Shown here: piece by piece, positions 2,283-25,170 of the stretch
How positions within the stretch are numbered: position 1 is the first letter of the stretch
How the letters are laid out: every line of letters starts with the position of its first letter
Source: Candidatus Peregrinibacteria bacterium
Lineage (GTDB): Bacteria > Patescibacteriota > Gracilibacteria > UBA1369 > LOWO2-01-FULL-3
NCBI GenBank assembly: GCA_016235895.1
Contig: JACRIB010000007.1
Location: forward strand, 1 to 35,491
DNA: 35,491 bases
Reading direction: 5' to 3'
The notes under the pieces: generated by a model
The model's database searches: none
Told to the model about the DNA's origin: nothing
What the model saw: only the letters and a program-made list of their open reading frames with translations
Made by a program: the position numbers and the translations under genes

Positions 2283-4391
2283 ATGATGACAGAAAAAACG
2301 AAATTGCAAAAGGTTTTGACGGATTTGCCAAAATCTCCCGGCGTTTACAAAATGATCGATGGCGAAGGAAGAGTGATTTACATTGGTAAAGCCAAGGATT
2401 TAAGCAAAAGAGTTAAACAATACTTTCAAAAAGATTATCAACATTCCACCCGCACGCGAAAATTAATGGAAAACGTTCAAGATATCGAAACCATCATAGT
2501 AGACAGCGATTTGGAAGCCATGATTCTGGAACATAATTTAATCAAACAATTACAGCCAAAATACAACGTCATCATGAAAGATGACAAAAACTACGTTTAT
2601 ATAAAAATTACCAAAGAAGATTTTCCCAGAATTCAATTGGTACGCAAAATTGAAAAAGACAACGCTAAATATATCGGCCCAAAAACAGCGGCCCACAAAG
2701 TAAAAGAGACCTTCAAGGTATTAAAAAAAATTTTTCCATTCAGACACTGTGGTTTGGATATTAAGATGATTCAGAAAAACTCATCCAATAAAGCAAAACA
2801 TCAAGTGCTGGTAACTCATAAAGTTCTCAAATATCCCTGTTTGGATTACTACATCAAAAGGTGCATTGCGCCTTGCATCGGCAATTGCAGCATCGAAGAA
2901 TATCGGGAAATAATTAAAAATGTCGAAAATTTTCTGGAAGGAAAAAGTGAAAACATCGTCAATGATTTAAAAGAAAAAATGCGGCGGTATGCGAAAAAAA
3001 AAGAATTTGAAAAAGCCGTAAAGGTCAGAGATAAAATTAAAAAAATAGAACAAATTCTTGAAACCCAAAAAGTTCAAGATACCGATCAAACAAATAAGGA
3101 TGTAATAAATTACTGCATCACTCAAAACAAAGCTTACTTCAATTTATTCCAGATCAGAGATGGCAAATTAATTGGGCAAGAAAATTTTATTTTGAGCGCG
3201 CAAGAAGTTGAAGAAGATCAAAACAGCGAAGTACTTAGTGCATTCTTGAAGCAATATTATAAATTGGCCACCGACATCCCAAAAGAAATATACTTGCCTC
3301 ATAGCCCAGAAGGGCAACTGGAAATTGAAAAAAAAGTTTCCATTATCATTCCGAAAATCGGCCTTAAAAATAAACTCCTGGAAATGTCCCTGAATAATGC
3401 CAGAATTTTTGCCGACCGCAATAAGCCAAGCTGGAAAGAAGAAAGCCTATCGGGAGAAAACGCTCTCAAAGAATTACAAAAAATACTCAAAATTAACAAA
3501 TCATTAAAAAGAATCGAATGTTATGACATTTCACATCTAAGTGGAACAGATACCGTAGGCTCAATGATTGTTTTTCAAAATGGCGCACCTAAAAATTCAC
3601 TTTACCGCAAATTCAAGCTCAAAACGATCAATAATAAGCCTGATGATTACAAATCCATGGAAGAAGTTCTAACACGTAGATTTTCCAGAATCAGTCTGAA
3701 CTATACGCACAAGGAATATATTCTAAAAAAAGCCACCAAAAAAGATACAAAATTTATCGAAAGCAACAATAAAGTAAATTTAAAAACAACTGACCGCGCC
3801 TTCTACGTCATAGCAAAAGGAAAAGAACAAATCGGCTTTATCTCCGTAAAAAAATACAATGATAAAGTGTCCGAACTGCGCAATTTATGGATCAAAAAGA
3901 AAGCCAGAGGCGCAAAACTCGGTTATAAATTAATCAAAGAAGCAATAAAGAAGAGTAAATTAAAAAGAGTCTACATAAGCTGTAAAAGTAAAATCAAAGA
4001 TTATTATTTGATTGCCGGGTTCGAAGAAATTAAGAAAATACCCGAGGAAATAAACAAGCACAAGGAAGTCTGCTACATGGTTTATGACACCTACAAACAC
4101 AAAGATGATGAATCATTTAGCCAAATACCTGATCTCGTAATTATTGATGGTGGCAAAGGCCAATTAGCCGTAGCGGAAGATGTTTTCAAAAAATTAAAAC
4201 TGGAAATTCCTCACATTTCCTTGGCCAAAAGACTGGAAGAGATATTTCTGCCAAACAATCCCACACCAATTCTTCTGGGTCACCACAACGAAGCCTTGAA
4301 ACTGCTTCAGAGAGCACGCGACGAAGCTCACCGCTTCGCCATCAGTTACAATCAAGATTTACGATCTCGGACTTTTTCAAAATATCGCTAA
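2283..4391 (+). CDS. uvrC: UvrABC excinuclease subunit C with an internal GNAT-like domain
   Basis: UvrC makes both incisions in nucleotide excision repair. In order: a GIY-YIG nuclease (SPGVYKM then VIYIGKAKDLSKRV, residues 1-95); a cysteine cluster (RHCGLD, then PCLDYYIKRCIAPC) like the Fe-S site, with about 25 extra residues between the first and second Cys; a UVR domain (about 213-256); and an RNase H-like nuclease from about 409 with ECYDISH, PDDYKSM, IIDGGKGQ and DEAHRF, matching the catalytic Asp/Asp/Asp/His set. Between PDDYKSM and IIDGGKGQ, where relatives have only a short link, some 140 residues (about 470-612) resemble a GNAT acetyltransferase (LWIKKKARGAKLGYKLIKEA, then YYLIAGF). 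The protein stops just after DEAHRF, so the usual C-terminal helix-hairpin-helix pair is absent. The end overlaps thiI antisense by 50 bases. Confidence 0.95.
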   Translation: MMTEKTKLQKVLTDLPKSPGVYKMIDGEGRVIYIGKAKDLSKRVKQYFQKDYQHSTRTRKLMENVQDIETIIVDSDLEAMILEHNLIKQLQPKYNVIMKDDKNYVYIKITKEDFPRIQLVRKIEKDNAKYIGPKTAAHKVKETFKVLKKIFPFRHCGLDIKMIQKNSSNKAKHQVLVTHKVLKYPCLDYYIKRCIAPCIGNCSIEEYREIIKNVENFLEGKSENIVNDLKEKMRRYAKKKEFEKAVKVRDKIKKIEQILETQKVQDTDQTNKDVINYCITQNKAYFNLFQIRDGKLIGQENFILSAQEVEEDQNSEVLSAFLKQYYKLATDIPKEIYLPHSPEGQLEIEKKVSIIIPKIGLKNKLLEMSLNNARIFADRNKPSWKEESLSGENALKELQKILKINKSLKRIECYDISHLSGTDTVGSMIVFQNGAPKNSLYRKFKLKTINNKPDDYKSMEEVLTRRFSRISLNYTHKEYILKKATKKDTKFIESNNKVNLKTTDRAFYVIAKGKEQIGFISVKKYNDKVSELRNLWIKKKARGAKLGYKLIKEAIKKSKLKRVYISCKSKIKDYYLIAGFEEIKKIPEEINKHKEVCYMVYDTYKHKDDESFSQIPDLVIIDGGKGQLAVAEDVFKKLKLEIPHISLAKRLEEIFLPNNPTPILLGHHNEALKLLQRARDEAHRFAISYNQDLRSRTFSKYR

Positions 4392-5544
4392 GCCATTCAC
4401 CAAGCGGCAACAATTTTTCATATTCCCGCACATCATAAATATTAGCCTTAATCTCCGGATGTTCCGGCATAAACATGCCACAAGTATCCTTACAGGGTAA
4501 TTTTGAAATTTCAAAAGTACCAATTTTCTCCGCCAACCCGATAATGTCTTCTTTATCAAAACCAATTAAAGGCTGATAAATCGGGATCGTCGAAGCCTCA
4601 TGAATGGCAAAAATATTTTCCGGAGTTTGTGAAGCCACCTGTCCAAAATTATCACCGGTAATCAAACCTCGCGCTTTCTCACTTTTGGCTATTAATTCGG
4701 CAATTCGAAGCATCAGTCGTCGATAAATCACCGTTCGAATTTTCGCCGGAATATCTAAATTGGTCGAAATTTTCTTTTGGAATTGACCAAATGGCACCAA
4801 ATAAAGCTTGGTATCAAACTGATAATCAGAAAGCATTTTAACCAATTCCCGCACATGCTCCGACTCGGCCTTATCAGTGTAAGGATACCCATGAAAGTGC
4901 ACAAAAATCACTCTTGCTCCACGTTTCATCATCATATAAGAAGCCACCGGCGAATCAATTCCCGCGGAAATCAAGGATACCAATTTACCCTGGCTGTTAG
5001 CCGAAAGACCGCAGGGACCATCATATTTTTTGAAGGAAAAATATCCATGATTATTAAAAAATTCCACATCCACCACAAACTCCGGATTTTCCATTTTCAC
5101 TTTAATACCAATGTCACTTCGTAAAAGACAAGCCCCAATTTGCCTTTCAGCCTCAATAGATTTGAAAGGCAAAATCATCGAACGTTTCACCCTAACCCTG
5201 AAAGTCCGCGGTTTGCTATCCGGATCTCTGACAAAAGCCGGCAAATTCTCCCAAATCTGAACAGATAATTTCTCAATATCAATCTTACCTTCATAAACAA
5301 ATTTAAAATTCTTAATACCAAAAACTTTATACAAAATCTTGGCATAATCCTCCTCCTGTCCATAAGTAAAATCCCCAGGCAACGCAATCAAAAACCGACT
5401 CAAAGAATGTTTGATCGAAAAATTCCTCTTAAATCTCTTCTCAAAAAGCACCCTCAAACGTTTACGCAATTTCTCCACAAAATACTCAATATTAGCCTTC
5501 TTCAAGCCAATTTCCCCATAATGTACAATGATGAAACGTCTCAT
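4342..5544 (-). CDS. thiI: tRNA 4-thiouridine synthetase ThiI
   Basis: ThiI adenylates uridine 8 of tRNA and installs sulfur to give 4-thiouridine. The 400-residue protein shows the N-terminal ferredoxin-like start (FIIVHYGEIGLKK), a THUMP region (about residues 55-170) and a PP-loop ATPase with SAGIDSPVA near 193. LPCKDTCGMF near the C-terminus carries the conserved cysteines. There is no rhodanese domain, as in the short form found in many bacteria, so a role in thiamine synthesis is less likely. The ATG at 5544 is chosen because MRRFIIVHYGE matches the family start; an ATG at 5562 would add six residues. A TATGAT box (5554-5559) ends 9 bases before the start. The gene is divergent from folP and its 3-prime end overlaps uvrC antisense. 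Confidence 0.93.
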   Translation of the reverse strand: MRRFIIVHYGEIGLKKANIEYFVEKLRKRLRVLFEKRFKRNFSIKHSLSRFLIALPGDFTYGQEEDYAKILYKVFGIKNFKFVYEGKIDIEKLSVQIWENLPAFVRDPDSKPRTFRVRVKRSMILPFKSIEAERQIGACLLRSDIGIKVKMENPEFVVDVEFFNNHGYFSFKKYDGPCGLSANSQGKLVSLISAGIDSPVASYMMMKRGARVIFVHFHGYPYTDKAESEHVRELVKMLSDYQFDTKLYLVPFGQFQKKISTNLDIPAKIRTVIYRRLMLRIAELIAKSEKARGLITGDNFGQVASQTPENIFAIHEASTIPIYQPLIGFDKEDIIGLAEKIGTFEISKLPCKDTCGMFMPEHPEIKANIYDVREYEKLLPLGEWLSDILKKSEIVNLDCN

Positions 5545-5567
5545 AGCCGCCACATCATACAAGAATA

Positions 5568-24604: not shown

Positions 24605-24632
24605 ATTATAACAGATTAAAATAGAGAATCAA
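24605..24632 (-). promoter_or_regulatory. Promoter of gatB
   Basis: Minus-strand TTGATT (24627-24632), 16 bases, TATAAT (24605-24610), the -10 preceded by TGT like an extended -10. It ends 8 bases before the ATG. The -35 box lies within the end of coaE. Confidence 0.5.
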
Positions 24633-25170
24633 CAACCTTCTCCAAATCCTTCAGGCTGCCCTCATTTTTCAATACAAAATCTACGTCACTAAGCTTATCT
24701 ATCAAAGCAAAAGCCTTTTCCGCCAAATCCTCAGAGAAACTCCTTTCATCAATCAACGTAGCAAAAATCTGCTCCTTCGGCCTTTCCACCCAAACCAATT
24801 TATCGACAAAATCGGCCAAAAAATCTTCATCAAAATACGTCGCTTCAATTGCCACATTGGCATTTTTATTTTTACACAAAAGTTCACGAATTTCCTCATA
24901 AACCACGGGGTGAATCACATCATTCAGCAATTTCAATTTATTTTCATCTTCAAAAACTACTTTTCGCAGTTTCAAGCGATCCACCGAACCGTCAGATTTC
25001 AAAAATTTCCTACCAAAAACAGCGGCGACCCTTTTAGTTCCCAAACCATCTTTCACGTACAAATCATGCACGATTTTATCCGCATCAATACAATAAAAAC
25101 CCTTCTCAAACAAAATCTTCAACACCTCCGACTTCCCCGCCGCAATTTTTCCGCAAATTCCTAAAACCAT
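24616..25170 (-). CDS. coaE: Dephospho-CoA kinase
   Basis: CoaE phosphorylates dephospho-CoA in the last step of CoA synthesis. The 184-residue protein has the P-loop GKIAAGKS (residues 7-14), YCIDADKIVHDLY, the lid region with RLKLRKVVFEDENKLKLLNDVIHPVV, and WVERPKEQIFATLIDER. Sequence after that is more divergent than usual, with few basic residues in the expected arginine-rich segment, but the fold assignment is solid. It lies in a leftward run with 3 bases between it and the upstream HEPN-like gene. Confidence 0.88.
   Translation of the reverse strand: MVLGICGKIAAGKSEVLKILFEKGFYCIDADKIVHDLYVKDGLGTKRVAAVFGRKFLKSDGSVDRLKLRKVVFEDENKLKLLNDVIHPVVYEEIRELLCKNKNANVAIEATYFDEDFLADFVDKLVWVERPKEQIFATLIDERSFSEDLAEKAFALIDKLSDVDFVLKNEGSLKDLEKVVDSLF

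Follow-up and report, generated by a model that had tools for sequence, protein, structure and literature searches.

UvrC is among the most conserved repair enzymes. Its GIY-YIG domain makes the 3′ incision, and in the proteins of T. maritima (2nrt) and D. radiodurans (8b0q) the GIY-YIG, UVR and RNase H-like domains follow one another in that order, with a catalytic D, D, D, H set. The GNAT acetyltransferases (PF13508, PF00583), among them Gcn5, RimI and SpeG, share a fold order, a general-acid tyrosine position and an acetyl-CoA pyrophosphate loop whose textbook form is R/Q-x-x-G-x-G/A. A GNAT can be joined to another catalytic domain in a nucleic-acid enzyme: Elp3 combines radical SAM and GNAT in one protein. 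In-frame insertions in housekeeping genes are likewise familiar from Rickettsia palindromic elements and inteins. We know of no enzyme domain described within the UvrC nuclease core. A search limited to open papers returned no published UvrC with an acetyltransferase or GNAT domain, nor one in Patescibacteria/Peregrinibacteria, in agreement with an earlier note on this DNA, made from the sequence alone, which knew of no described UvrC of such an architecture. The UvrC and GNAT families are both old; their combination and its evolution appear to be new.

The gene considered here lies in a window (the whole stretch of DNA analysed) of 35,491 nucleotides from a Candidatus Peregrinibacteria bacterium (contig JACRIB010000007.1). 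Its product scores 494.5 bits against the NCBIfam uvrC model (curated cut-off 285.45) and has the same domains in the same order as the T. maritima and D. radiodurans proteins, including a UVR motif that presumably binds UvrB, as is known of the family (Table 1). Pfam places UvrC_RNaseH at residues 272–377 and UvrC_RNaseH_dom, in two pieces, at 399–687. The catalytic residues D415, D455, D622 and H683 are all present in the window protein and show no variation across a 48-sequence UvrC alignment from many phyla. The same genome encodes UvrA and UvrB at other loci. The window gene encodes the cell's own UvrC, the dual nuclease that serves excision repair, in a form peculiar to this clade. It differs from the T. 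maritima and D. radiodurans proteins in two respects: it has 145 more residues in one turn, and it lacks the C-terminal (HhH)2 domain.

Table 1. Positions in the window of uvrC, its domains and the putative active-site features of the insert
Feature	Residues	Position	Strand	Basis
uvrC, 702 aa, stop codon included		2283..4391	+	single open frame; NCBIfam TIGR00194
GIY-YIG nuclease domain	19–95	2337..2567	+	PF01541, E 6e-11; VIA-align Z 17.6 to 1yd6
UVR motif	223–257	2949..3053	+	PF02151
RNase H-like 5′ nuclease domain, half 1 (D415, D455)	399–469	3477..3689	+	PF08459; 2nrr alignment; invariant columns
Inserted segment, 145 residues	470–614	3690..4124	+	alignment to T. maritima UvrC 2nrr/2nrt
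GNAT-fold domain proper	477–608	3711..4106	+	PF13508, PF00583, PF13673; AlphaFold; VIA-align Z 14.8 to GCN5
Strand β4, candidate general base	E531	3873..3875	+	alignment of relatives
Acetyl-CoA pyrophosphate loop (motif A), R-G-A-K-L-G	R542–G547	3906..3923	+	alignment of relatives
Helix α4, general-acid position of GNATs	Y575	4005..4007	+	alignment of relatives
RNase H-like domain, half 2 (D622, H683); no HhH after it	615–687	4125..4343	+	Pfam; 2nrr alignment; invariant columns; AlphaFold

The (HhH)2 domain is required for 5′ incision in the UvrCs studied so far (PMC7835731). Pfam found no HhH match in the window protein, which stops 19 residues past H683. The C-terminal tail is just as short in every complete UvrC of the window's family and in several sister families.

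The additional residues lie between residues 469 and 615, where T. maritima UvrC (2nrr/2nrt) has a two-residue turn. The earlier note had placed a GNAT-like domain here, inside the nuclease domain, at 3692–4120 and with about 140 residues. Pfam, the alignment to 2nrr/2nrt, AlphaFold, Foldseek and VIA-align all bear out the location and the kind of domain, but the exact borders are 3690–4124, enclosing 145 residues. In the full protein, Acetyltransf_7 matches residues 505–582 with 31 bits (curated cut-off 27 bits, E 3.4e-7); with the inserted segment as sole query the E-value is 4.6e-8, and Acetyltransf_7, Acetyltransf_1 and Acetyltransf_10 all exceed their Pfam cut-offs. The AlphaFold model of the whole protein has a mean pLDDT of 86, with the GNAT-fold blocks mostly at 73–92. 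It predicts strands at 479–483, 505–512, 515–524, 530–537, 562–567, 581–583 and 597–602 and helices at 486–495, 546–558 and 569–577 in the insert, and this predicted succession is the GNAT order β-α-β-β-β-α-β-α-β. The fold search that the earlier note had proposed alongside structure prediction also returned GNATs (Foldseek probability 1.00), and VIA-align superposed residues 479–608 on Gcn5 at 2.4 Å over 130 residues (Z 14.8).

As judged from sequence alignment and the predicted structure, the turn between a helix and the D622-bearing strand accommodates an entire GNAT domain, which leaves the two nuclease halves alignable with solved UvrC structures. Taken together, the two flanking halves match D. 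radiodurans UvrC (8b0q) with a Z of 23.9 and 39% identity over 163 residues. Because the four nuclease residues are retained, the domain was inserted, not exchanged, as the earlier note had maintained. The insert would lie at the end of the sheet remote from the nuclease active site and be carried there as a side module. This arrangement differs from that of Elp3, whose domains follow one another along the chain and make up a single tRNA-modifying machine, and from that of other GNATs, in that a loop of a nuclease domain houses the GNAT.

We aligned 189 UvrCs, 187 from Gracilibacteria/Peregrinibacteria, a large class of ultra-small bacteria among the candidate phyla (Patescibacteria), and two from a family (f44) of another class. 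In 166 of them the loop is at least 90 residues long, and a profile built up from the window's family recognises 156 of these 166. The insert is present in frame in three genomes of the same genus and in every same-family genome with a complete gene, which excludes an assembly fusion. The earlier note had named a frameshift or fusion at the borders as one danger to its reading; we rejected such an artefact, in which two genes are fused, as having practically no chance of being correct, since the identical in-frame architecture recurs in many independent genomes, single-contig ones among them. Among the matches listed in a scan of the collection, three Candidatus Peregrinibacteria loci (L100–L102) bear the insert, and none of 110 UvrC loci of other phyla or viral contigs matches the profile. 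Six families (f18, f150, f151, f155, f25 and f156) have ordinary UvrC loops of 6–26 residues. Class members with ordinary loops (L180–L194; f25, f151, f155, f156) have in-frame TGA codons in uvrC, indicating an alternative code, and the window's family differs from them in this.

The f44 insert is a homologue (E about 1e-27; identity to class members about 36%), but the UvrC core of that family branches with an insert-free relative, so its insert may have been exchanged. On a tree built from the UvrC core without this loop, the state of having or lacking an insert changes 6 to 9 times. A donor was sought by an insert-only search of 41 genomes, which gave uvrC alone: apart from split uvrC pieces, no relatives of the insert were found outside this gene. 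Most likely, the main GNAT lineage entered Gracilibacteria/Peregrinibacteria once, early, and was then inherited vertically.

The insert also has GNAT active-site features. The earlier note's motif A segment needs one correction: the candidate acetyl-CoA loop reads R-x-x-K-x-G, a departure from the textbook pattern: R and the final G are retained, and K replaces the first G. Among relatives that keep the loop, a group defined by R542, G543 and G547 without regard to Y575, 59% have K at this fourth position, and R542, G543 and G547 are conserved in 92%, 90% and 90%. Tyrosine at 575 is found in 96% of loop-keeping but only 35% of loop-less relatives, and Y574 falls from 79% to 10%. E531, whose Gcn5-like position makes it a possible general base, is glutamate in 60% and 24%, respectively. 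Scaffold positions do not move with the loop (G579, 98% in both groups; Y564, 98% and 96%), and P587 mostly stays.

The alignment of related UvrCs that the earlier note had suggested thus revealed an acetyltransferase-fold insert across the class, 156 of 189 sequences matching the profile, with an active site that most lineages retain and many others have lost. Under strict definitions, 104 of the 156 inserts retain both loop and tyrosine, 32 lack both, 16 lack the loop only and 4 the tyrosine only. The loop is kept in 24 of 27 members of the window's family and absent from f2, f3 and f8 in every member sampled. These states change at least 15 times on the UvrC tree (24 times with broad definitions), counts that carry no direction, and 14 independent pairs fall on well-supported branches. 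We read this as an active site that is maintained as a unit and has been abandoned repeatedly; that it was lost rather than gained is inferred from GNAT ancestry. Together, the intact and dead natural versions form a series on which control of excision repair by acetyl-CoA or protein acetylation can be tested.

Abandonment of the active site does not release the fold. In close pairs with measurable dS (dS is saturated in many pairs), the dN/dS of the insert is mostly about 0.03–0.2, usually 1–4 times that of the UvrC core. Loop-less pairs give 0.074–0.078 for the insert (0.078 against 0.031 for the core in G053–G081; 0.075 against 0.039 in G060–G081). The scaffold remains under purifying selection, loop-less pairs included. 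The loop-less insert of L101 (Peregrinibacteria RIFOXYB2_FULL_33_20), in a prediction that used four sequences, is still modelled as a GNAT (pLDDT 88.8, pTM 0.83, best Z 17.2).

We considered acetyl-CoA availability as a cause of loop loss, but the presence of CoaE (dephospho-CoA kinase) does not track loop keeping. Family f19 is mostly intact yet lacks CoaE: its sampled genomes give no match above the family cut-off, and most of its UvrCs keep the loop. Families f2 and f8 are all loop-less and mostly have CoaE. The window encodes CoaE at 24616–25170 on the reverse strand. The idea that the GNAT substitutes for the lost HhH domain likewise gained no support: 14 or more changes in HhH are needed on the tree, and a pairs test showed no link between HhH and loop loss.

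In a few members of the class the same loop holds other domains, which points to a permissive site; it would lie at one end of a strand that has D622 at the other. Among nine UvrCs of family f21, four have loops of 12–36 residues and three carry GNATs of another kind; of the remaining two, one holds a DUF559 endonuclease (E 8e-35) and the other a domain resembling nucleotidyltransferases (PF10706, E 1.7e-6). In G095 (f23) the loop is occupied by a serine hydrolase (PF06821, E 7.5e-12), and the 316-residue loop of G035 (L041, f7) seemingly contains two tandem GNAT units, of which Pfam backs the first, and the second weakly. A loop that accepts domains in this way should be useful for tagging or engineering UvrC in laboratory systems.

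In f21, DUF559 segments lie in frame in UvrC, valyl-tRNA synthetase, an Elp3-like gene and an AroA/NUDIX frame (L222, L356:1502–4795, L352:820–2997, L353:244–2385), the hosts besides UvrC being named by eye. Several of these segments are flanked by repeat-type peptides (SPHPDPLPEGEG, SPLAPLIEGG..., VPLLTPPPKGEENSPSLREG). The f21 DUF559 looks like a mobile endonuclease cassette that is translated as an insertion domain, with no splicing domain noticed. Peptides resembling translated palindromic repeats (VIASEAKQS..., SVIPRKAGIQ, and RTGVSNLLNDSK in tandem) also occur in the UvrC loop of other Patescibacteria (L080, L081, L092) and of Candidatus Hatepunaea (L111). The main GNAT insert resembles Rickettsia palindromic elements and inteins in being a foreign coding segment tolerated in a loop of a housekeeping protein. 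It differs from them in that no splicing domain was seen (no Pfam or NCBIfam match to a self-splicing Hint domain in the full window protein), no repeat termini were noticed and no further copies were found.

What might the insert do? The earlier note had suggested that it could modify a partner or DNA-bound protein, bind proteins or sense acetyl-CoA. We give somewhat better than even chances to an acetyl-CoA-dependent enzyme, accessory to UvrC, that later became a scaffold in many branches. Since the loop, the acid tyrosine and the β4 glutamate are kept in the window's lineage, acetyl-CoA binding and acetylation of an amine are most likely there, and the window protein itself, to go by its residues, likely binds acetyl-CoA. 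The GNAT domain would then plausibly transfer the acetyl group to an amine (a lysine or an N-terminus) of a protein in the neighbourhood of the incision complex, with UvrC itself or UvrB, or else some protein bound to the DNA, as candidate targets. This activity would be accessory: about a third of relatives have no loop, so catalysis is dispensable for UvrC function in general. Because the fold stays under purifying selection after the joint loss of loop and tyrosine, such branches likely retain a second, non-catalytic role, as a spacer or interaction surface. Comparative data thus favour both an acetyl-CoA-dependent role in the window's lineage and a scaffold role that outlives its loss, although the 60% conservation of E531 even where the loop is kept, and the failure of CoaE to track the loop, would count against an enzyme. 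It is rather unlikely that the GNAT was never enzymatic and served only as a spacer or as a surface that binds UvrB, UvrA, DNA or another UvrC, its acetyl-CoA loop being left over from ancestry. The persistence of fold and selection after loss of the active site, and three families (f2, f3, f8) without a loop in any sampled member, would fit such a history, but loop and tyrosine are among the best-conserved positions of the insert in 104 of 156 relatives from many families, and they were lost together, which is unexpected had they never been used.

Conservation of the same residues would also suit a sensor in which acetyl-CoA binding alters UvrC activity allosterically without acetylation, and the modest conservation of the candidate base would be explained. 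We nevertheless regard a sensor as improbable: the acid tyrosine, superfluous to it, is kept at 96% alongside the loop, and CoaE does not track loop loss. Still less credible is a selfish passenger: mobile coding segments would land in this loop, and UvrC would do no more than tolerate the GNAT. The DUF559 segments of f21, with their flanking peptides and further in-frame hosts, the nucleotidyltransferase, serine hydrolase and other GNATs found in the loop, and the repeat-like peptides of other Patescibacteria all speak for mobility at this site. However, they account for the site better than for retention: the main GNAT is old, common to many families and under purifying selection, with no second copy in 41 genomes and no flanking repeat noticed. 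The best reading is an accessory domain that acts near the excision complex, is inherited vertically, probably binds acetyl-CoA and has repeatedly been reduced to a scaffold. A bolder proposal, that a built-in acetyltransferase couples acetyl-CoA to nucleotide excision repair, with UvrC acetylating part of the incision complex, or DNA-bound proteins around it, throughout the class, is possible, but we hold it only tentatively and think it on balance doubtful. If true, it would add a previously unknown protein-acetylation branch to bacterial excision repair, at a loop that hosts other enzyme domains in neighbouring lineages.

In the window, uvrC converges on a ThiI-like gene (4342–5562, reverse strand; named by eye), and the 3′ ends of the two genes overlap by 50 bases (4342–4391).
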